Shown one piece after another: positions 6,540 to 19,238 of a stretch of DNA of 21,837 nucleotides. The notes under the pieces were generated by a model. The model worked only from the letters and a program-made list of their open reading frames with translations, was not told the DNA's origin and searched no databases. Position 1 is the stretch's first letter, and each line of letters opens with the position of its first letter. The translations under genes and the position numbers were made by a program. Source of the DNA: a virus; IMG/VR virus record IMGVR_UViG_3300010151_000215, positions 1-21,837 of that record; one strand, written 5' to 3'.

Positions 6540-6758
6540 ATGAACAATAAAAAAGAAGGGAATCTTGTTTCGTTTAGAATATTTATTGCAAGAGATGGGA
6601 ATATAATATCTGAATTTAAACACTTACCAGTAAAGGAAATAGAAAAAATATTTAATAAAGATTACATACCTATTATTAATAAAATAGTTAAAGAAGGGTG
6701 CTTTAAACTAGAAGACTTGCATACTTATATAGAAAAGGAAGTGCAAAGTTTATCTTAA
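6540..6758 (+). CDS. Hypothetical protein, 72 aa, last gene of the plus arm
   Basis: I do not recognise the family. The protein is small and Lys/Ile/Glu-rich, probably alpha/beta (VSFRIFIARDGNIISEF then helical segments), without membrane helices. A near-perfect ribosome site, AAGGAGG (6529-6535, overlapping the nrdB stop), precedes the ATG by 4 nt. Its stop codon shares bases with the stop of the convergent minus-strand gene, so it marks the end of the early/middle arm. Confidence 0.75.
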   Translation: MNNKKEGNLVSFRIFIARDGNIISEFKHLPVKEIEKIFNKDYIPIINKIVKEGCFKLEDLHTYIEKEVQSLS

Positions 6759-6943
6759 TGCTCTATCGTTGTGTCAAATGTGCCGTCAAAAATTTCATCA
6801 GCTTTAGTCATAGCCATATATTGATATTCAAATATACTTCTGTATGTTTCAAAGTCTACTATCTCTATTTCTTTTGAGGCGTGTACCCGCGCATATACTT
6901 GATACGCTGCACCTAATTGTTCTTCTGTATATAAAGCTAACAT
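6755..6943 (-). CDS. Hypothetical acidic protein, 62 aa, last gene of the minus arm
   Basis: This is a small soluble protein of unknown family, acidic and Tyr/Glu-rich, with no signal or membrane segment. The start is supported by a GAAGGTGA element just upstream of the ATG (in minus-strand sense, around 6949-6956). It follows the lipoprotein gene by 16 nt, so it probably closes the long minus-strand operon. Its stop overlaps that of the convergent plus-strand gene within the palindrome TTAA. Confidence 0.6.
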   Translation of the reverse strand: MLALYTEEQLGAAYQVYARVHASKEIEIVDFETYRSIFEYQYMAMTKADEIFDGTFDTTIEH

Positions 6944-6959
6944 ATATTCACCTTCTATA

Positions 6960-7145
6960 TTAATTAAATAGTTGTTCCGCAGCGCAGTAGTCTAAGCTTC
7001 TACAAGTCCTAACATTCAACATAAAAATATCTTGATCAATCCAGTTAAATTGAGGGTACTCTTGTAAGTGTAAGGACATTCCACTAGGCGCTCCGAAGTT
7101 GCTACAGCCTGTCAGTAGTAAAGCTGTAAGTATTAAATGTTTCAT
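6960..7145 (-). CDS. Small predicted lipoprotein, 61 aa
   Basis: The N-terminus is a lipoprotein signal: MKHLILTALLLTGC with lipobox Leu11-Thr-Gly-Cys14, so the product should be cleaved before Cys14 and lipid-anchored. The mature part is only about 48 residues and includes two cysteines (RTCRSLDYC) that could form a disulfide in the periplasm. The ATG overlaps the stop of the copper/heme protein gene (ATGA at 7145-7142), with AGAGGT upstream, implying coupled translation. An outer-membrane spanin is a possible reading because of size and lipobox, but no inner-membrane spanin partner is visible. Partnership with the exported neighbour is an equally plausible inference. Confidence 0.65.
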   Translation of the reverse strand: MKHLILTALLLTGCSNFGAPSGMSLHLQEYPQFNWIDQDIFMLNVRTCRSLDYCAAEQLFN

Positions 7146-8440
7146 TGAGCTACTAACCTCTTGTTGTTTCTCTCAGTTATAAGTTCTTGATACTTCTCTT
7201 CATCAAGATGTGTTACTGCTATCCATGCGTGAGTCATCTCATCCCCTGTCCTACTACCTCCTACAACCCACATATCAGGATCAGGATTGTTAGGGTTGTT
7301 TGCTGTGTTGTCATACCATTGTTTTAAAACTAACACTGCTCCTGTTGGTAGTAGTGGGGCATAGTCTGGATCATACAAATGACTGTGATGCCACGTTGCA
7401 CTCCAGTTAGATACCTGACTGATCTGCTCTGTTCTCCCAGTATCGGGGTAGAATATCTCAAAGCTTGCTGCATTCATTCTTAAATGTCCATGTGGTTGCC
7501 ATGAGTCTATACGAACTGGGTGATCAAAGGAGTGAAAGCCTTGTGTCATAGAATAACCATTGGGCGGGATAACAATATCAGCTTGATCGCTAATCCTGTA
7601 TAGTCTCAGGTCTTGTTCGTAAGCAAGTTCTTGGGATTCCTCTGGAGAATACAACCACAGCCCTATCTCTACTACATTATCTTTAATAATAGTTCCGGGG
7701 GCTATAGCTCCAAGACCTCCGGGGAACATATGAATGTCCCAAGCTATCTCTGCGTTAGCAGGTATGGTTCTACACACCCCCTCTGGTACTATTTCACCCC
7801 ACTTACCCATAGCGTATTCAGTGAGCATACCGTACCTCTCGCCTTCTAAAGTAACAGTACTGTTAGCGTGGTGAACCACACTCTTAGCCTCTCCTCTTGG
7901 CTTAACTTGGATGGCTTTAATGCACCTGTCCTCAGTTAGTCCACTGGCTACATTATGTTTGTGCCAGAGATCGTTTCCTGTAGCCGGAATATCTATTGGA
8001 GTAGATGGTATAACCAACGTAGGCTCTCCAAAGTTTTCGTAGAAGTTCCACTGATCGGGGTCTGAGAGGCTCGGAGGCTGCACTACAACGTCAGTATCTC
8101 CGTACTCTGATCCTGTATTAACCCACTCTACTATCGTGTCTATATCGGCCTGAGAGAGCCTCCAATCACCATGTAATTCCTGTATGCCAATGCCTTCATC
8201 ATAAGCATAGGGCGGCATTTCTCTGTTAGCTACTTTAAGCTGAATCAAAGGACTCCACGGGCGAACCTGTTCGTAGTTTTCAAACTGCATTGGGCCTATA
8301 CCGCCTTCGCGGTGACAGACAACACAGTTGTTATTAATAATAGAAGCTACATCATCTACATAAGTAGGTTCATTTGAATATACTTTACTAGCTGATACCA
8401 GTAGTGCAGTAGCTATTATTAAACCAAGTAATGTTTTCAT
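7142..8440 (-). CDS. Exported cytochrome c / copper monooxygenase-like protein
   Basis: The 432-residue protein has a signal peptide (about 1-22), a small cytochrome c-like domain with heme motif CVVCH (39-43) and candidate axial Met75 (MPPY), and then a domain resembling copper type II ascorbate-dependent monooxygenases (PHM/DBM fold). The copper-ligand set is visible: His190-His191 (VVHHA), His237 (DIHMFPGG), His317-x-His319 (PHGHLRM) and Met402 (GDEMTH). These match CuH (His, His, His) and CuM (His, His, Met) of PHM. WYDNTANNPNNPDPDMW (375-391) is also typical of the bacterial family as I remember it. The expected site is the host periplasm; the substrate is unknown. Its ATG overlaps the stop of the 2463-residue virion gene (ATGA), with AGGAG 9-10 nt upstream. 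It looks like a host-derived auxiliary metabolic gene. Confidence 0.85.
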   Translation of the reverse strand: MKTLLGLIIATALLVSASKVYSNEPTYVDDVASIINNNCVVCHREGGIGPMQFENYEQVRPWSPLIQLKVANREMPPYAYDEGIGIQELHGDWRLSQADIDTIVEWVNTGSEYGDTDVVVQPPSLSDPDQWNFYENFGEPTLVIPSTPIDIPATGNDLWHKHNVASGLTEDRCIKAIQVKPRGEAKSVVHHANSTVTLEGERYGMLTEYAMGKWGEIVPEGVCRTIPANAEIAWDIHMFPGGLGAIAPGTIIKDNVVEIGLWLYSPEESQELAYEQDLRLYRISDQADIVIPPNGYSMTQGFHSFDHPVRIDSWQPHGHLRMNAASFEIFYPDTGRTEQISQVSNWSATWHHSHLYDPDYAPLLPTGAVLVLKQWYDNTANNPNNPDPDMWVVGGSRTGDEMTHAWIAVTHLDEEKYQELITERNNKRLVAQ

Positions 8441-11400
8441 TTACAGTTGCTCCTATGTAAGCTGCCTAGTAATTTACCGCCTTTATTGCGTTCAATCCTA
8501 CCAGTATATAATGGGCCTAATGTTTCTTGTGTTCCTACGGCTTTTAAATCTTCTGAATTAAAAATAAAATCTTGCCCTCGCACTAGAGGTAAGCCTAGAT
8601 TTAATTTTAAATCTGTTCTTTGTTTACTTCTAATCATTTCTTGTAAAGCTGCGGATTCAGTTAGTCCTTGTTGTTCTAAATAAAAACCTCTTGAATTATT
8701 AAAAGAATCTACAGAACTATCTATTGGATTTTCTGCCGCTTGTCCAAATTTTTCACCTTCTTTTAATTGAAGAAGCCCTCTCATAGCAGGATTAGTACCA
8801 TATCTGAAAGATAAAAGACCGTGGTTGACCGCATTAAAAAGTTCGTCAACATTTCCTTTAGTAAACCCATAATCATCTACTGGTACAGCGTGTTCTTCTT
8901 TAAGTATTCCTTCTGCTACTGCATCATTAATAGCTTTAGCTGCATCTCTTTCATTAAGACGTTGTTCTCTTGCACCTATTCCAACTGCTCTAGCTCCTGC
9001 TTCTATTGCTTCTTGTCTATAGCCTTCTTTATAATAGTTTATAGCATCTTTTGTATTAAGTAAAAATCTTAAACTTCTAACAATTCTGTTTCCTAAACCG
9101 CCTTTAAGAATTCCACCGTCTTTGTATTGCTTTCTGATTGAGCCGCCTGTGGCTGAAAATAGATTTCGCATTAGGTCTTCTTTAGTAGCATCTGGATTAT
9201 AGTTTGCATAAATTGATTTTACTTTATCTGGGCCTAAAGGTATGATCTGAGTTTGGGGAGTTATATCAGCAGCTTTGCTAACATCTTCAACATTAATAAA
9301 TTCTATATATCCATAGCCTTGTTTTTTTGCTTCCTTCCAAATTTCTTTTATCATATCAGACTTTTTAGTTACAGGGGTTTTAATATTTAATTGATCCATA
9401 GCATCCTGTATAAACCATTTTCCCCACGGCATAGCCTTGTTGTCTGGAGATTTATAAGTAGAGGGTGCCCATTTATCTATTTTTAATTTTAATCCCGGTC
9501 CCTTTAAAAACATAGGAAGTATTTCGGGGGTTGTCCAGTAGTCTTTTTTAATTTTTCTTCCTGCTGCTCTGTCGGCTGCTTCAGCTTTACTGTTCCATTT
9601 TTTTTGTGCATAAAAAGAAGATATATCTGCATCAGTACCTAAATAGACCATATGATTTTCGGGACTAATATCATCCATGTAATTATCTAGAAAATATTTT
9701 TCATCAAAAGTTATTCCGTCTGTAGCCCATCGCTCACCAGCAGCGTGATACACTATGCGCTCAGTATCCATTCCCGCTTCTTTTGCTTTCTTTATTAAAG
9801 CTGTACCTCCTTGTATAAGATTTTCTGGCCCTCCTGTTTTAATGTTTTTACTTACAATTTCTAGTACACTATCATCATAAAAAGAATATTCTTCATTTCC
9901 TCCAAGACTTAATCCTTCTAAAGAAGTTTCCCTTAAATCTCTTTTTGCAGCTTTAATTCCATAGTTTTTAAAAATATCTTCTGCTTTTAAATCTTTATCT
10001 TCTAAGTTTCTTTTTAAAATATAAAATATTCTTTTACTATCTTTGTCTTTATCTGACAACTGAATATCATAGTCTTTTGCTATAGCATCTATTCTAGTCT
10101 GCACAGGAGTCGGTTGATCGGCAAACTTTGTACCTGTTCTAATTATTTCATCCTCATTTATATGTGCTTCTAATTCATATAAAGTAGGAGTAGAAGAACC
10201 TCTAGCAGTTCTTTCTTCTAAAAGAGCTTTTTCTGATAAACCTACAGAACGGTTGGGTGTTGCATCAAGATATGACTCAGCTATTTTTTTATCTTTTGTT
10301 GCAGCTACTCCTCTGCCTAATTGAAGAGCATTAGAATCAATAGATTTACTAGCTTTTAAAGTAGGAACACTATGTGGAGAACCGTGCCATAAACCTTTTA
10401 TTATATTAGCACCTGTTCTAGCTAACGTACCTGCCATATATTTTTGACGAGAAATATATCCACCTTCATTTTTATATATAGGCAAAGTAAATTCTTTTTC
10501 AGGTAATACTATAGTTAAGTATCCTTTATCGTCCCAACGAGTAGTAGCTCCTATTTTTTTTGCAATTTTTTGTACTTGTGGAGCTACTGTATCTTCATAA
10601 TATTCTTGAATATGATAACTTCTTTGCATATGACCTTTTGATCTATTAGGCTTAACCTTCCATTCTTTATAAGCCGGGACACCCATATATTTTCTACTTT
10701 CTGGAGTATCTCTACCAATCAAAAAACTAATTTCGGGAAGCCCTCTTTCTTTTGTTTCAGCTATCATTCTATTTATTATATTTTGAGAAACATCTATTTC
10801 AGGTATAACTTTTGATATATTAATTGCATTAAGAGTATCTTGTACTTTATCTGTTATTTTATTTTTTAAAATATTTTGGGACTCAAATTTTGATATATAA
10901 TTTTTTATATCTTTATTTATTCCACGTTGGGGTAAATATTTTGTTTTTTCTATATAAGATTTTAAATCGGCTATAAGATCACTTTCTTTTACAAAACTTT
11001 CTAAATTTAAGTCATATTGCACGAATAATGTATCTAAGTGATAAAGCTTTTCATCTTCCAAAGCAAATTCTTTAATGTTTTTACGCATACTTGCAGCTTC
11101 TTTATATAAAGCATTTAAGTTTTTTACATCTATACCTAGTTGTTTGCCTTGTTCTTTTGAAAATTTAATATCTTTTTTATTAACATTAAATGAATCTAAC
11201 AATACATTATACACATTATCATTAGATTTTTTCTTCCACTTCGTTGGCTCAAACACAATATCATATAAGGCCAACCTAGTTTTTCTACCTATTGCTAAAT
11301 CACTTTGCATTTCAAAAACTCTAAGAGCGGGATCAATCTCATCAAATCTTACATGATAACTATAAGGATCGTCTTTATATCCCGCTTTAATAGCCGCACT

Positions 11401-14400
11401 ACCCTTTGGCAAATTAAGAACAAAATGTTTAGATTCAGCACCTATTTGCTTGCCTCTAGGATCACGAAATATTTTAGTTTCTAATGTTAAATCATTAACA
11501 TCTAGGGGAGTATATTCGTCAAAAAATGCGCCTTCTTCATTTATTATTAAATCTGCCTCAAGCTGTTTGCCATCATAAGGAATTCCTCGTTCGGCAAGCT
11601 CAGCATCAAATTCTAATTTTTCTAATGCTGTATTATGTTCTAATAAAGTTTCTTTTGCAGTTACAAAGTTAGAATCAATTAAAGGTTTATCCATTCTAGC
11701 TTTATCTATAGCTCTTAAACCATCAGGAGTATAAGCTAGATTACCTGATCTAGTAACTACAGTCCTAATTTGAGCGGCTGCTTCTTCGGATTCTTGTGTT
11801 GGTGAATGCCATGCATTACCGTCTTCATCAATACCTGCCGCCTCTATTTCATCTTTCCGAACACCTCTGTTTTGTAATCTTTTTACTAACCTATTAATAG
11901 GAATATTTTCACCTTTATCTGCTAATTCACCAAGAGCTTCTGATAGTTTAGATTTTAAAACCGGAGCCGCCTTTGAAACTATTGTTCCTAATGCAAAACC
12001 TTGGCGATCTTCTTCGTCTATAAAAGCTCCTCCCGCTTGTACATCATATGGAAGTCCTGTCATTCTATCTATACGTTCATCAGGTTCTTCAGTAACTTGT
12101 GGTACATTATAAACTTCACCGCCTTTTTCCCAGTTTTTTCTAGAAACTACATCTTGTTCTGGAGTAGTAGATTTTTGAAAAAAAGTATCTCCGGCCCGTA
12201 ACATTTCTCTATACTTATCAGGCCAATCTTCAGTGGCTTCAGTAGCACCAAAAATTGCATTAAAAGCTCCGTAGCCCGGAATTTTTTGTCCTAGTATAGA
12301 AAATACATCTGCACTAACTCCCAGTTTATAAGCATCACCCCAAAGCGGTCCAAACCCTGTCATATAAGCAGTAGGACTTTGATAAATTTCAGCAGCCGTT
12401 CTACCTCTTGTAAACATATCAGCAGGTAAACCATTAAATCCTGCTCTAGCCAAAGCACCACCAATTACTTCATGGGGTTTACCCTCCAAAGATTCGCCTT
12501 GAGTTCTAGCAGCATTAGTAAACATAGCTACTGCTGTCATAATTCCTACAGCAGGAATATGTTGAGTTAAAGCAGTCTCAGGATTTCTAGCTATTTGTCT
12601 AGCCATATTTTTCATAACTGTATTAGTAAAAGCTGCGGGGTAACCTAATAGTTGACCGAGGATTGCAGTTTTTGGATTTGACATATACATAGGTTTTATA
12701 CCTGACTGTGCGCTAGGATTTAAAATAACTTCATTAGTATATGTATTTGCTCCTTCTTTAAGTTTTCTGTAAAAATCGTCTTCTATATTAGCTCCTTTAT
12801 TTAGCCAAGATACACCTTCATTATAATTTATACCAAGATCAGCTAGTTCATCTATTTGTCTTTGTACTCTTCTAGATATTTTACCTGTTTGTATTAAAGG
12901 CATATGTGAAGCAATGCTTTCTAAATTTTCTGCTATTAATCTTTTTCCAATAATATATGAAGCTGTTTGAACTCCTTTAGTCCATTGGTCTAAAAGTGTA
13001 AACCTAAAAAATTTATTACTAACATTTCTCATTCTAGGACTAGATAGTGCATCACCTCCTAATCTATCTGCGTAGTCAGCAAAAGCTTGATCTAAAGCCG
13101 TACCCATTTGATTGAGTTCGTGCATTGCTTCTTTACTAGTCATATTAAAAGATTTTTGAAGACCGTTTAAAGAATCATCAAACATTTTTTTAGAACCACT
13201 AAATATAGCATCTCTGTATCCTGCGAAAGATGTTTTAACACCTGCTTTAGAAATGTTAATAAATATTTCTGAAAGACTTGATAGTGTTGATAAGGGTAAT
13301 AAAGCCATTCTATTAAATAACATATATGAATCTGCTGCCGTGCCTTTCCACCCCTTATATCTATCTAAACCTTCTCCAGTAACATTTTGATATACATCAG
13401 TCATGTCTTTCTTTGCTTGGTTTATTAATTCTGTTGTAGCTCCATTAGCTCTCATTTCTTTTTCTAAAGCCGGAAACCAAGTAGTATTAAAATCTTCTAT
13501 ATTTCTTACACCAAATACGGTATCTTTTGCTATAGCTTTAGCAGTAGAACGATGATAACTAAGCATTACATTATTTAAATCGTTATCTAAATATTTAGTA
13601 AAGGCAGTTTCATCTTTTAATTCTAATTGTCTTCTAGCAAAAAAACTATTCATGCCTGTACCAGAATCATTACCAAATTGAAATTTAATATCTAATAATT
13701 CTTCCCATACTTTTTCTGCTTTTTCTTTATTAGTAAGCTGCCGTCTAATTATATTTCCATTGGCATCAATAGTTTCTTCTAAATCTACGTGTTGTTTCCA
13801 ATTAACATTCTTTTCAAGAAGACTAATAAAATCTTCTTTATTATTTTCTATTTCTGATCTTTTCCATAATCTAGGTAGGTAATTATCTATTAAATTATTT
13901 ACTAATCCTTTTCCTTGTGATTCATCACCCATTTCTTTTAGTTGACTTCTACCAAATTTAACTATATTAAATAAAGATTTTCTTACATCTTTACCTAAAT
14001 GTTGTGTTTCTCTAGCTAAAGTTTTTATATCATTAGTTCTAATAGCATTAGAAAGTAAAGTATCTATTTCTTCTTTATATCCACCTTTAAGAGTTGTTTC
14101 AGCAATAGGATCATAAATAGCTTTCCAAGCCATTCCAAGTCTACCAAATTCTATATTAAATACATTACCATAATCATTTGTATCTCTTACTATAGACTCT
14201 CCTCTTTTCCAAGAATTAGATACAGCAGATACAATTCTTTCTTGAAAAGAATTTATAACATTAGGGCTAAGACCCTGATACTTATTAAAAATACCAGTAA
14301 CTTTTCCTGTTAAATATCTAGCATTAAAGTCAGAAGTTTTATCTAAAACTTTTCTTAGTATAGAACTTTCTCTAGCTATATTAGTTATACCTCTGGTAGC

Positions 14401-15828
14401 ATTAGCTTCTTGTATAGCATCTGTTAAAATTTCAGAAGTTCTTTGTCCTCCACCAGTTTTAGCAGCTAGTTGGTCGGCAAGACTGCCTATTTGTGCATCG
14501 TCTAAATCTATAGTTTGAGTTACTTTTACTTTTTGACCTTTTAAAACTTTTGTTGCAGTTTTTTCTGCATCTTTCATATAAGTATTTTTAACAAAAGTTA
14601 TAGCTGTTTGAATTTCAGAATTTTTTAATCCATATTGTTCAAACAATTTTAATACTTCAGGATCAATATCATTAATTTGTAAAGTTCTTTGTTTAGTAGC
14701 AAAGTTTAAACCTTGCTTTACTTCGTCAGGTGTAAGTTTTTTAAAAATAGTATCTTTAATTGCCAGTATTATATTAGCTATTCTTACATCATCGTATTGA
14801 TTGCCTAATTCTTTTTTTAAATTTTTTAATAATGTTAAATTTACTTCAGGATTTCCTTGCCTATCGTAATATTGTTTACCTCTTCTATCAGTTTTTAATT
14901 CAACTTTATTAAATAATCCTGATACAAGCGTTTCTGCTTCTTGTTCAGCAGTACTACTAGCACTTGAATTAATTGAAGAATTTGGAGGAGGCAATACTGT
15001 GGGGGTAGTACTTTGTCCAGTTTCAGCTACATTAGTTGTACGTCTAGAAAATAATTTACTTGCACCATAACCTAAACTACCTCCAAGCCCAATACCTAAT
15101 CCTACAGACAAGGCAAAGTCCCCATCACTAAAAGCATCTTGTAATCCAGTAGTTATATTTATATCTTGTCTATTAGCATTTTCTACGCCTGTCCAAATAC
15201 CGCCTTCAAATGCTGCGGATACGCCTGTAACTGTTGGAGATAAAGAATCTGCATTAGCCGCTGCAATATTATTTAAAGTCTTTTTAACATTTTGTTTACC
15301 TGCTTGACTTGTTAAAACTCTAGTTGCTGCGCCTGTAGAAGTCCTAGCAACAGCACTACCTAAACCCGGAGCTACCAATGCAAAAGCTAAATTAATAGGA
15401 TCAGCAAACATATCTACACCTCTATCAAAAGTAGCTTTTAACATTTCGCCAAAACTACCTGCTTTAGAAGCTTCAAAATTATCTCTAAGATATCTATATG
15501 TTTGTTTAATTTCTTCAGGAGCCTCTCTTAAAACTCTAGCTCTATCAATTACTGTAAGTAAACGGCCTTCTTCATCTCTAAGTGTTTCAAAAATATCGTT
15601 AGATATTGCACCACCTGTTAATTTTTCTGCCATCCCTTCTTGTTCTGATAAGTAACTAAGAAACTTTTCGGCTTCTGCTTGATAACGTGGATCATTCCTT
15701 AAATCAGCATGATTTTTTTGAATAAAACTAGAAGGCCCACTTAATCCTATTTGTGTTTTTTCAGGCGCTATAATATTATCGGCATTTAAAACACCCCAGA
15801 TATTTTCAGTATTCTTTTTTATTCCCAC
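8437..15828 (-). CDS. Giant polyvalent, probably ejected virion protein (2463 aa) with two ART-like domains
   Basis: The N-terminal part has Ala/Gly-rich hydrophobic stretches (about 143-160 and 234-258) suited to membrane interaction. A long helical region with FRFTLLDQWTKG and NPKTAILGQLLGYP (about 850-1110) recalls the large domains of polyvalent proteins. A module with EMQSD (1506-1510) follows. Two ADP-ribosyltransferase-like modules come next: one from LWHGSPH (His1815) through GRGVAATKDKKIAESYL to about 1995, and one from VYHAAG (His2028) through MVYLGTDADISSFYA to a typical KSIYANYNPD end near 2210. Size and place in the late operon resemble T7 gp16-type internal proteins, so delivery into the host with DNA is inferred. 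The start is GTG, overlapping the lysozyme stop, with AAGAGG about 9 nt upstream. The domain calls are pattern recognition only. Confidence 0.75.
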   Translation of the reverse strand: MGIKKNTENIWGVLNADNIIAPEKTQIGLSGPSSFIQKNHADLRNDPRYQAEAEKFLSYLSEQEGMAEKLTGGAISNDIFETLRDEEGRLLTVIDRARVLREAPEEIKQTYRYLRDNFEASKAGSFGEMLKATFDRGVDMFADPINLAFALVAPGLGSAVARTSTGAATRVLTSQAGKQNVKKTLNNIAAANADSLSPTVTGVSAAFEGGIWTGVENANRQDINITTGLQDAFSDGDFALSVGLGIGLGGSLGYGASKLFSRRTTNVAETGQSTTPTVLPPPNSSINSSASSTAEQEAETLVSGLFNKVELKTDRRGKQYYDRQGNPEVNLTLLKNLKKELGNQYDDVRIANIILAIKDTIFKKLTPDEVKQGLNFATKQRTLQINDIDPEVLKLFEQYGLKNSEIQTAITFVKNTYMKDAEKTATKVLKGQKVKVTQTIDLDDAQIGSLADQLAAKTGGGQRTSEILTDAIQEANATRGITNIARESSILRKVLDKTSDFNARYLTGKVTGIFNKYQGLSPNVINSFQERIVSAVSNSWKRGESIVRDTNDYGNVFNIEFGRLGMAWKAIYDPIAETTLKGGYKEEIDTLLSNAIRTNDIKTLARETQHLGKDVRKSLFNIVKFGRSQLKEMGDESQGKGLVNNLIDNYLPRLWKRSEIENNKEDFISLLEKNVNWKQHVDLEETIDANGNIIRRQLTNKEKAEKVWEELLDIKFQFGNDSGTGMNSFFARRQLELKDETAFTKYLDNDLNNVMLSYHRSTAKAIAKDTVFGVRNIEDFNTTWFPALEKEMRANGATTELINQAKKDMTDVYQNVTGEGLDRYKGWKGTAADSYMLFNRMALLPLSTLSSLSEIFINISKAGVKTSFAGYRDAIFSGSKKMFDDSLNGLQKSFNMTSKEAMHELNQMGTALDQAFADYADRLGGDALSSPRMRNVSNKFFRFTLLDQWTKGVQTASYIIGKRLIAENLESIASHMPLIQTGKISRRVQRQIDELADLGINYNEGVSWLNKGANIEDDFYRKLKEGANTYTNEVILNPSAQSGIKPMYMSNPKTAILGQLLGYPAAFTNTVMKNMARQIARNPETALTQHIPAVGIMTAVAMFTNAARTQGESLEGKPHEVIGGALARAGFNGLPADMFTRGRTAAEIYQSPTAYMTGFGPLWGDAYKLGVSADVFSILGQKIPGYGAFNAIFGATEATEDWPDKYREMLRAGDTFFQKSTTPEQDVVSRKNWEKGGEVYNVPQVTEEPDERIDRMTGLPYDVQAGGAFIDEEDRQGFALGTIVSKAAPVLKSKLSEALGELADKGENIPINRLVKRLQNRGVRKDEIEAAGIDEDGNAWHSPTQESEEAAAQIRTVVTRSGNLAYTPDGLRAIDKARMDKPLIDSNFVTAKETLLEHNTALEKLEFDAELAERGIPYDGKQLEADLIINEEGAFFDEYTPLDVNDLTLETKIFRDPRGKQIGAESKHFVLNLPKGSAAIKAGYKDDPYSYHVRFDEIDPALRVFEMQSDLAIGRKTRLALYDIVFEPTKWKKKSNDNVYNVLLDSFNVNKKDIKFSKEQGKQLGIDVKNLNALYKEAASMRKNIKEFALEDEKLYHLDTLFVQYDLNLESFVKESDLIADLKSYIEKTKYLPQRGINKDIKNYISKFESQNILKNKITDKVQDTLNAINISKVIPEIDVSQNIINRMIAETKERGLPEISFLIGRDTPESRKYMGVPAYKEWKVKPNRSKGHMQRSYHIQEYYEDTVAPQVQKIAKKIGATTRWDDKGYLTIVLPEKEFTLPIYKNEGGYISRQKYMAGTLARTGANIIKGLWHGSPHSVPTLKASKSIDSNALQLGRGVAATKDKKIAESYLDATPNRSVGLSEKALLEERTARGSSTPTLYELEAHINEDEIIRTGTKFADQPTPVQTRIDAIAKDYDIQLSDKDKDSKRIFYILKRNLEDKDLKAEDIFKNYGIKAAKRDLRETSLEGLSLGGNEEYSFYDDSVLEIVSKNIKTGGPENLIQGGTALIKKAKEAGMDTERIVYHAAGERWATDGITFDEKYFLDNYMDDISPENHMVYLGTDADISSFYAQKKWNSKAEAADRAAGRKIKKDYWTTPEILPMFLKGPGLKLKIDKWAPSTYKSPDNKAMPWGKWFIQDAMDQLNIKTPVTKKSDMIKEIWKEAKKQGYGYIEFINVEDVSKAADITPQTQIIPLGPDKVKSIYANYNPDATKEDLMRNLFSATGGSIRKQYKDGGILKGGLGNRIVRSLRFLLNTKDAINYYKEGYRQEAIEAGARAVGIGAREQRLNERDAAKAINDAVAEGILKEEHAVPVDDYGFTKGNVDELFNAVNHGLLSFRYGTNPAMRGLLQLKEGEKFGQAAENPIDSSVDSFNNSRGFYLEQQGLTESAALQEMIRSKQRTDLKLNLGLPLVRGQDFIFNSEDLKAVGTQETLGPLYTGRIERNKGGKLLGSLHRSNCK

Positions 15829-16445: not shown

Positions 16446-18652
16446 AATTGCTTCGCAGCCAAGAACATTGCATCCTCATAAGAAACGTCCTCGGTTTCCA
16501 TAATTTGCCTGACCAAACGCGTAAGCTCTTGTTGTTTAAGTACTGATTCCCGTGAGCCACTAATTATCCCAAGCTGTTTATTAATCCAAGGCATAACCCC
16601 TCTAAAGGTATAGCTGAGAGGTTCCGGTTCTCCAAAAACGTCCGAAGTTGGATCATAATAAGGATTATCGTTGGGCAAACCCGTATTAACAGGTGGTGGT
16701 GGCGGTGGTGGCGGTGGTGTAGCCGATATGTTCCAATGCTCTACAAGGTTTCCCATAGATATTTTGTTATCTACTACTGTATGATTTGTAGTAGCAAGTT
16801 CATTTATTAATTTAGTTAGTGGCTCACCTGATTCTGTATCTATTAAAGTTACTTCTTGCGACATAAACCGTTGAGAATTACCTATTAAATCTCTTGCTCT
16901 TTGTTTTTGTAATGTAGTTCTCATATCATCATCTTTATCATAAGATATTTCTTCTATAACTCCTGCAAGAATAGAACTATATTCTTTTGGTGGTATTGAA
17001 ACAGATTCAACAGAAACGTCTTCTCTTTCTGCATCAGCCGCCAATAATATTGTATTTTCAAAATTTTGAAATCCTAAAAAATTTTCATTTTCAGAAAAAG
17101 CTTTATACTCAGAATTTTCCATGCCAGTAAGAATACTAAAAATATAAGCATCGGCAATTAGTTTTGTAGTTTCTTCTGTTCCTAATCCAGTTGTTACAGT
17201 TAGTTCTTTAGCTTTAACAGCTAATCGTTGATATTCAGCCGTAGCTCTTGTACCTAATTGTTCATTCCTTTTTAGTTCATCCATTACATCAGCAGTTACA
17301 TCATCTCCTGCCAAATAAAAACCCATAACATTTCCTTCTAATACAGAAGGCACTTTACCAAAAAAACCACTTGATCCTGCTGTAAACATAGTAGAAGCTT
17401 CTGTAATAGCTCCTTGCATTTGAGTTATTGAAGCTTCAGATAAAGTAGATATTTTTTGATCTAAAGAAAGTTCTTCGTCTGGAGTATGAGGTGTGAATTC
17501 TTCAAACCTTTCTACTAACTCTCCTCTCTCTCCTATTACCTTATATGTTTGCCACGTTCCCGCTTGTCCCCACATTTCCCCCTTACCTACTCTAGGTGCG
17601 CCCTCTGGTCGTGCTACTACAACCCTATCTTCTACACTAGTAACATTATCGCTTTCTGTAAGGGTGTCTTGTCCTTGTGCTGTTCGGCTCATTATATTCC
17701 AATTTCTTAAATGCTGTGGTTCTATTGTTTTCTTACCTTCTTCATCTCGTATATATTCTCCAGTATTAGGATCAATATCATATGGAGCTTCTTCAAATAT
17801 AATAGGTCTTCCGTTCATTGTTCCTTTAATAACATTAAAGGGCACTTTAAGAGTTACATCAAAATACGGAACTTCTCTTTCCTTTCTTTCAACTGATGTA
17901 ATCTTTAATCCTGCGGGACGTATGTTTAAATTCTCAGGCGTTAAGTCACCGAATTTTTTTGCAGCCCGTAGACCATATCCTTGCTCTAAAGCATTTTTAA
18001 AAGCGCTAACTTTTGTAGCAGCGTCACCATACCGACTATTAATAACTGCATCTATAAGTTCATTATCAACATCTGCTTGAGTTTTTCCGGTTATAGCTCT
18101 TTCGGCTCTGTTAAAAAGCCAACCACCTGCATTACTTGCTCTACCATCTTTTGTTCTTACCCACGCATCATAGTCTCCTAAATCTGGCATTTGTAAAGAA
18201 GCTTGATAAGCTTCTTCAAACTTAGGTAAATATTCTTCAGCCGCTTTTAAACCTTCAGCTTGGGCATACAAATTCATAGAATCTTCATCCCACTGAGATT
18301 CATCAAAATTTAATTTTAAATTACTTAATATTTCTCCTGCAAATTCTTCTGCCCAGTAACCTTTTCTTCCTCCTGCGTGTGCAGTAGATGTTTCATAGTT
18401 AGTTATAATTGCATCTCTATCTTTTAAAGTAGCTTCATATCTTAATCTTTCACCTACTAAATCTTCTTGTTCATTAATAAAAGTATTAGTACGATCTTTT
18501 ATTGCTTGATTAAATAGTTGTACACCTTTACCAACTACTTGAAGGGCAGCTTGATTTCTGACATCTTTTTTATATCTTTTTTCAGTTCTTTTTCTAGTTT
18601 CTCTTCCTCTAGCTAAAAGAGAGGAACCTAAATCTTCTACTTCTTTGTACAT
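16418..18652 (-). CDS. Large virion-type protein, 744 aa (possible internal/ejection protein)
   Basis: The N-terminus is helical and basic (RGRETRKRTEKRYKKD, 15-30), followed by long acidic helical regions with no membrane segment. A beta-rich middle stretch lies near 250-400. A run of nine prolines sits near residue 648, just after NISATP, and separates the C-terminal 90 or so residues. I recognise no named domain. Size, composition and position between structural genes and the lysozyme and giant-protein genes suggest a T7 gp15-like internal virion role, which is inference. The ATG follows the previous stop by one base, with a GGGGGT ribosome site 7 nt upstream. The 3' end carries a candidate -1 frameshift site that would extend it by 24 linker residues plus the lysozyme (941 aa in total). 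Confidence 0.8.
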   Translation of the reverse strand: MYKEVEDLGSSLLARGRETRKRTEKRYKKDVRNQAALQVVGKGVQLFNQAIKDRTNTFINEQEDLVGERLRYEATLKDRDAIITNYETSTAHAGGRKGYWAEEFAGEILSNLKLNFDESQWDEDSMNLYAQAEGLKAAEEYLPKFEEAYQASLQMPDLGDYDAWVRTKDGRASNAGGWLFNRAERAITGKTQADVDNELIDAVINSRYGDAATKVSAFKNALEQGYGLRAAKKFGDLTPENLNIRPAGLKITSVERKEREVPYFDVTLKVPFNVIKGTMNGRPIIFEEAPYDIDPNTGEYIRDEEGKKTIEPQHLRNWNIMSRTAQGQDTLTESDNVTSVEDRVVVARPEGAPRVGKGEMWGQAGTWQTYKVIGERGELVERFEEFTPHTPDEELSLDQKISTLSEASITQMQGAITEASTMFTAGSSGFFGKVPSVLEGNVMGFYLAGDDVTADVMDELKRNEQLGTRATAEYQRLAVKAKELTVTTGLGTEETTKLIADAYIFSILTGMENSEYKAFSENENFLGFQNFENTILLAADAEREDVSVESVSIPPKEYSSILAGVIEEISYDKDDDMRTTLQKQRARDLIGNSQRFMSQEVTLIDTESGEPLTKLINELATTNHTVVDNKISMGNLVEHWNISATPPPPPPPPPVNTGLPNDNPYYDPTSDVFGEPEPLSYTFRGVMPWINKQLGIISGSRESVLKQQELTRLVRQIMETEDVSYEDAMFLAAKQLGGGEDEEK
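16691..16717 (-). repeat. Nine-proline codon run (trinucleotide repeat)
   Basis: Nine consecutive proline codons (CCA with CCG and CCT variants) lie inside the 744-residue gene. Such runs stall ribosomes unless EF-P helps, and they form a stiff polyproline II spacer. They separate the body of the protein from its last 90 or so residues. Confidence 0.9.
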
Positions 18653-18653
18653 A

Positions 18654-19238
18654 CTATACCCCCTGCGCTAAAAGACTGTTATCCATAGGTTCTATGCCTT
18701 CTGGTTTGTCTAATAAACTTTGTTCTATAATGGGTGCTTCCTCAACAAGTGTTTTAATTTCAGGAGGAATAGGACTATTTTTTTTAATTTTATTTTGTTT
18801 GTCTTTTAATCGGTTTTCTAATCCTGTACTATTTAATTTACTTTCTGCTATAGTATCTTCTTTAACATCATCTCTATTAATAATATAATCAATTCCTTGT
18901 CTTTCTGCTAAAGCTATTAACATATAAGCTAATGGTTCAGCTAGTAACATTAATAAATCAGGATTCCATTTACCTTCTGTAAAACCTTTAAATAATATTA
19001 CTTGTGTTAATTCCATTATTGGCACACCATTATCTATAGCTACAAGAATATCAGGATATTTTTCTTCATCCGTTATAGTTAAAAATAAATATTCTAAAGC
19101 TTCACGCTGTACTGTAAACTCTGGAGAAGATTCAAATGGATAAGGATTAGCAGGATCATTTGCTAATGCTTCACCCGGAATTGAACGCTTCATTTTAGAA
19201 GCAGTATTTACATAATCAGGAGTTATTTCTTTTAACAT
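18654..19238 (-). CDS. Virion-type conserved protein, 194 aa
   Basis: The protein has an N-terminal segment with GEALANDPANPYPFE (22-36), a helical domain with a hydrophobic block EGKWNPDLLMLLAEPLAYML (87-106), and a charged Lys/Glu/Pro-rich C-terminal tail (about 125-194). From memory this layout is common among structural-cluster proteins of marine phages, but I cannot name a function. The hydrophobic block could be a buried helix pair rather than a membrane span because it contains Pro, Asn and Glu. AAGGT lies about 9 nt before the ATG, and 11 nt separate it from the upstream LysM protein gene. Confidence 0.75.
   Translation of the reverse strand: MLKEITPDYVNTASKMKRSIPGEALANDPANPYPFESSPEFTVQREALEYLFLTITDEEKYPDILVAIDNGVPIMELTQVILFKGFTEGKWNPDLLMLLAEPLAYMLIALAERQGIDYIINRDDVKEDTIAESKLNSTGLENRLKDKQNKIKKNSPIPPEIKTLVEEAPIIEQSLLDKPEGIEPMDNSLLAQGV

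Follow-up and report, generated by a model that had tools for sequence, protein, structure and literature searches.

The window, by which we mean the whole stretch of 21,837 nucleotides analysed here (IMG/VR virus record IMGVR_UViG_3300010151_000215), raises the question of whether a phage can carry a complete copper oxygenase and, if so, to what end. The open reading frame at positions 7142–8440, hereafter referred to as PHM1, had been read in an earlier note as a phage-borne, exported heme c enzyme resembling the PHM/DBM copper monooxygenases, and the fold, the aligned ligands, the tree and the purifying selection described below support this reading. The strand, absent from the earlier note, is the minus strand.

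Domain architecture and superfamily assignment of PHM1

The PHM1 ORF is intact (minus strand, 7142–8440, ATG start, 432 aa), and the plus strand of the same interval has many stops. On the basis of the ORF list, alignments, fold and ligand conservation, we annotate it as a putatively exported cytochrome c–PHM/DBM-like dicopper protein. The N-terminus (MKTLLGLIIATALLVSASKVYS/NEP) was judged by eye to be a Sec signal peptide (approximately residues 1–22), and the heme c domain (about residues 26–115) carries the heme site C39-V-V-C42-H43 (CVVCH), confirming both the signal peptide and the CxxCH motif claimed previously. Met75, which lies in an REMPP motif and is invariant, is likely the axial heme ligand. 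PHM1 fulfils the criterion for a c-type cytochrome (CxxCH and a distal Met in an exported protein), heme attachment being inferred. The remainder of the protein is a PHM-like double jelly-roll (about residues 140–412) with the Cu-H ligands H190, H191 and H237, the Cu-M ligands H317, H319 and M402, and additional residues typical of the subfamily (C173/C223, H351-H352-H354 and H160/H162).

The Pfam scan of PHM1 scored the cytochrome c part alone, below the cut-off, and yielded no Cu2_monoox match, so of the two domains to be expected from a profile search one was recovered below threshold and the other was not. None of the 24 viral members of the family matched PF03712 (Cu2_monoox_C) directly at E<10, and this Pfam family was connected to PHM1 solely via related bacterial proteins. 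As Pfam is blind to the copper part, a plain profile search would overlook the copper domain. Beyond a weak cytochrome c signal, PHM1 had no match in Pfam, NCBIfam or PHROGs, in the PDB by phmmer, or by tblastn among PLSDB plasmids and INPHARED phages, and no matches were found among isolate phages, PHROG or BFVD proteins.

The hhalign comparison of the 24-member viral alignment with 13 Pseudohongiella-like cytochrome c–PHM proteins (probability 100, E 2e-69) covered the whole length, with all ligands aligned; several of these bacterial proteins scored above the Cu2_monoox_C cut-off in the genome search and just below it in direct scans. A profile of 63 members with the window PHM1 as the lead sequence (A3) matched human dopamine beta-hydroxylase (DBH; 4zel) at E 2.4e-5 in HMMER, the HH, H, HxH and M ligands all falling in register, and a related bacterial profile (A2) matched DBH and rat PHM. 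An initial model, for which the alignment was shallow, reached a pLDDT of only 65 and was superseded by an AlphaFold2 model from the 63-member alignment (pLDDT 87, pTM 0.84). The 31 best Foldseek matches of this second model in the PDB were all PHM or DBH, with E values between 6.6e-12 and 1.6e-9, a probability of 1.00 and target-based TM scores of up to 0.64; the first match to any other protein had an E value of 2e-5. No alignable copy departs from the heme and copper ligand residues, whether among the 139 bacterial rows or the 151 phage rows (some of the latter from contigs fetched twice). This invariance and the PHM/DBH fold match together exclude a chance origin of the ligand pattern, the HH, H, HxH and M ligand set given in the earlier note was borne out, and the structure prediction suggested there yielded a PHM/DBH fold. 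PHM1 is a member of the PHM/DBM superfamily (copper type II, ascorbate-dependent) by its fold and its Cu-H and Cu-M ligands; copper binding and O2-dependent hydroxylation are inferred.

PHM1 resembles PHM and DBH (PF03712), the copper oxygenases with which animals make hormones and dopamine, in its double jelly-roll and in the aligned HH + H and HxH + M sites, but it is only about 13% identical to them, has no Pfam Cu2_monoox match, and has an N-terminal heme c domain and extra conserved Cys and His residues. The substrate pair of true PHM, which we take to be Arg240 and Tyr318 in PHM numbering, is not kept, being replaced by Q315 and W406 (the Arg240 position was read off the HxH alignment, and the ligand Met served as the starting point for locating that of Tyr318). 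This argues against a peptide with a C-terminal glycine as the PHM1 substrate, and peptide amidation appears unlikely, as far as can be judged from sequence. In the alignment, DBH too has a Gln at the PHM Arg240 position. The many conserved histidines besides the six ligands (H160/162 and H351/352/354) would be consistent with copper or heme handling, that is, copper storage or delivery rather than catalysis. We consider such a role very improbable, since both catalytic-type sites are intact under strong constraint and a chaperone would not need heme c.

PHM and capsid proteins have the double jelly-roll in common (PMC8812541). A capsid role of PHM1 was ruled out, since the protein has lost none of its ligands and retains both its signal peptide and its heme site.

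Gene position and distribution among phages

Upstream of PHM1 lies the gene for a giant protein of 2463 aa (8437..15828, minus strand) with matches to PHROG endolysin and virion structural protein families, and downstream lies lipoB (6960..7145, minus strand), encoding a 61-aa small lipoprotein with the lipobox LLLTGC and the mature motif CRS....C.AE.LF. Both PHM1 junctions are ATGA start/stop overlaps of 4 nt, the PHM1 start overlapping the giant-protein stop and the PHM1 stop overlapping the lipoB start; within the structural gene run of the minus strand, PHM1 therefore lies at the 3' end. This run is closed by a 62-aa ORF (6755..6943, minus strand; weak DUF7700 match, no signal peptide), which most members of the phage clade retain together with PHM1, and converges on a plus-strand run of polymerase, nrdA and nrdB. 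Further IMG/VR records, derived from separate metagenome datasets, show the same arrangement at 100% protein identity (L001, L002 and L174, the last on a contig of 53,281 bp), and it persists in about 20 relatives that have diverged. The junctions at 7142 and 8440, for which assembly chimerism had been raised as a possibility, are real.

The window resembles Pelagibacter phage HTVC115P in the order DNA polymerase, nrdA, nrdB and a convergent run ending after the giant protein. However, HTVC115P (17410–18762) has Hsp20 and small ORFs in the slot where the window (6755–8440) has PHM1 and lipoB; what lies between the giant protein and nrdB thus varies among HMO-2011-like phages. A survey of HMO-2011-type phages lists no PHM1-like enzyme, at least in its section on auxiliary metabolic genes (PMC9038755), and PHM-like phage genes were not described in any paper found by our literature searches, which did not cover subscription papers or preprints.

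The first scan recovered 204 IMG/VR contigs matching PHM1, and two scans together yielded 88 distinct phage PHM1 genes. The carriers are HMO-2011-like podophages, T4-like or jumbo phages of 77–340 kb, the contigs of which also encode T4-type Gp23 and/or terminase, and phages of a third type, which encode a B12-type RNR and a collagen-like tail fibre. The survey of related phages suggested in the earlier note was favourable, with the window gene order seen in about half of the first 80 PHM1 contigs. Among 80 contigs with a related nrdB, all those with an nrdB match of at least 86% and sufficient downstream DNA had PHM1; among the others it was present in L213 only, and L214 was cut off but had the lipoprotein. 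PHM1 is therefore not peculiar to the window contig and is a widespread marine phage gene.

Two PHM1 phage contigs were found inside bacterial MAGs (Neomarinimicrobiota and Flavobacteriales, respectively): L082 (PBPT01000016), which is 335 kb long and a phage by gene content, and L097 (DQKQ01000288). The 340-kb phage L070 encodes tandem repeat proteins (L070:6399-9334) that appear curli-like by eye; Pfam gave a sub-threshold DUF4179 match for one of them, and nothing else.

Bacterial relatives, selection and partner genes

The phage PHM1 copies formed one clade (SH-aLRT 98) inside the gammaproteobacterial sequences, beside L083 and L086. The only "bacterial" row in this clade, L097, is a 6.7-kb contig with phage-like genes. 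Because the tree was built rapidly and has only one, distant outgroup, it leaves the precise donor unsure. Judging from the nesting of the phage clade in multi-copy paralogs, phage PHM1 was taken from marine gammaproteobacteria. The cytochrome c–PHM proteins of this group (Pseudohongiella, OM182 and relatives), with or without TlpA, have the same domain order and ligands as PHM1, and the closest copies are 65–75% identical to it. However, the phage copies form a separate clade on a long stem, with HKH at 160–162 nearly fixed, and are paired with a lipoprotein or a second cytochrome c–PHM protein (PHM2), whereas the bacterial locus has a 317-aa secreted protein.

The dN/dS ratio of the window PHM1 relative to its relatives was 0.05–0.085 (a rough estimate, several dS values exceeding 1), and the 1,324 phage pairs for which dS was below 1 gave a median of 0.11. 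By this measure PHM1 is under strong purifying selection, and with its ligands kept it is, as had been anticipated, no decaying passenger. The GC content of PHM1 (0.44) is higher than the window mean (0.35; bacterial copies have a median of 0.53), which could point to bacterial contamination, a chimeric contig or decay. We regard this explanation as already refuted by the recurrence of the same junction both in other assemblies and in relatives that have diverged, the phage-only clade, the dN/dS values of about 0.05–0.1, and the presence of Gp23 and terminase on the PHM1 contigs of other phages. PHM1 meets the criterion for a phage auxiliary metabolic gene (host-derived, in a genuine phage genome, under selection), its effect on host metabolism being inferred.

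Host-type genomes have four to nine Cu2_monoox_C matches each. The bacterial loci (counts of bacterial and phage loci include some contigs fetched twice unless described as distinct) contain one to four tandem copies, the 317-aa secreted protein, which is conserved, an MFS transporter, a cupin and a GMC oxidoreductase, and this gene content fits the oxidation of an external substrate. The secreted protein (e.g. L083:6752-7684) has no Pfam match and adjoins PHM1 copies in 51 of 76 bacterial loci. In a TlpA–cytochrome c–PHM paralog located upstream in bacteria, adjacent to the tandem copies (e.g. L105:3041-4777, L084:4665-6530), the HxH Cu-M ligands have been lost; this protein is possibly a non-catalytic partner, and its loss of HxH indicates that the ligand constraint in PHM1 is not automatic. 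An NHL propeller lies close to the PHM copies in 16 bacterial loci. It matched the PAM lyase domain (E 2e-23), but generic NHL proteins matched better, and a PAL-type second step is therefore no more than a lead.

Partner genes were counted for 74 distinct phage PHM1 copies with at least 1.5 kb of downstream DNA. lipoB follows PHM1 in 39 of them, unrelated phages included, with a second lipoprotein gene, lipoA, in nine of these 39; it was found next to none of the 139 bacterial copies. lipoA (motif LPERSAQDW) is common to podophages and the jumbo phage L082, and the sharing of lipoA and lipoB between such phages (loci in the window, L012, L013, L014, L015 and L082) suggests cassette exchange. 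The direct coupling of this phage-associated lipoprotein to PHM1, its +2 Ser-type signal, making it likely outer-membrane bound, the inferred expression with structural genes and the separation of the phage clade from host copies would all suit a modification of an outer-membrane component by PHM1 and lipoB late in infection, for example in superinfection exclusion or as an aid to release. This seems to us a rather unlikely role, as lipoB is missing from about half of the phage copies, many of which have a second cytochrome c–PHM protein instead, and close bacterial copies lie in metabolic-looking clusters (MFS transporter, GMC oxidoreductase, cupin).

PHM2 (about 410 aa, all copper ligands kept) accompanies 24 of the 74 copies, only one of which also has lipoB; a free class I cytochrome c was found in six, and none of these partners in 12. 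PHM2 was identified in 56 loci, some of them contigs fetched twice (L047:11256-12494; also L059, L070, L080, L026, L028, L039 and L040), and the free cytochrome c lies between PHM1 and PHM2 in L078, L080, L290 and others. The window phage has PHM1 and the lipoprotein only, without a second PHM or free cytochrome, and no second PHM was found in its 53-kb relative. PHM2 and the free class I cytochrome c after PHM1 in other phages point to an electron-transfer role, in keeping with the heme-relayed hydroxylase proposed below. As an alternative, PHM1, with PHM2 and cytochrome c where present, might be an electron sink to O2, peroxide or NO without hydroxylation of organic compounds, serving the redox balance of the infected cell or protection against oxidants. 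The union of heme c and dicopper sites in a single chain, the free cytochrome c in some clusters and the extra histidines of the subfamily are compatible with this. We nevertheless consider it unlikely, because the full set of non-coupled Cu-H and Cu-M ligands, like the fold, is specifically that of hydroxylases.

Proposed function and significance

At somewhat better than even confidence, we prefer to read PHM1 as an auxiliary metabolic enzyme that phages acquired and make late in infection: a dicopper hydroxylase of the periplasm to which heme c relays electrons. Activity, expression and export are inferred, without biochemical, transcript or proteome data, and we know of no cellular copy of the subfamily with a known substrate, which counts against this reading, as does the lack of a second PHM and a free cytochrome in the window phage. 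PHM1 would be made late in infection with the structural genes, exported, and loaded with heme c and copper. By analogy with PHM and DBH, O2 would bind at Cu-M and a substrate C–H bond would be hydroxylated with a second electron from Cu-H; the substrate may be a small dissolved or envelope molecule of unknown identity. Bacteria are generally without ascorbate, and a fused heme c would thus be a natural electron relay, replacing ascorbate as the one-electron donor to Cu-H and drawing on the host periplasmic respiratory pool, although neither the heme–copper distance nor the copper geometry has been measured. The phage may benefit from boosting an oxidation pathway of its host, a host that has not been identified but that would itself have several paralogs.

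We suggest more tentatively, and with somewhat less than even confidence, a mobile periplasmic oxygenase cassette in unrelated marine phages, consisting of cytochrome c–PHM1 with the lipoprotein, or with a second cytochrome c–PHM and a free cytochrome c, in which the infected cell's respiratory chain and not ascorbate would drive a dicopper hydroxylase, so that the virus would run an extracytoplasmic C–H oxidation.

The pmoC-phages carry a host-acquired copper monooxygenase component that is expressed late (PMC7674155). Phage pmoC and amoC are like PHM1 in being virus-borne, host-acquired and part of a copper monooxygenase system, but they encode an integral-membrane subunit of an unrelated family that requires the host PmoA/B, whereas PHM1 would be a complete, soluble, exported enzyme, its activity being inferred. 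If active, PHM1 would give the PHM/DBM superfamily what is, to our knowledge, its first viral member and would place a complete copper oxygenase in phages, unlike the single-subunit pmoC/amoC known so far. It allows one to test directly whether heme c, when fused to a PHM/DBM enzyme, can stand in for ascorbate, and it draws attention to an enzyme family that has expanded in marine bacteria and has gone unstudied. Our results suggest that marine viruses with PHM1 change the oxidation chemistry at the surface of infected cells; if the enzyme is active, common marine phages would steer periplasmic oxidation in abundant gammaproteobacteria.
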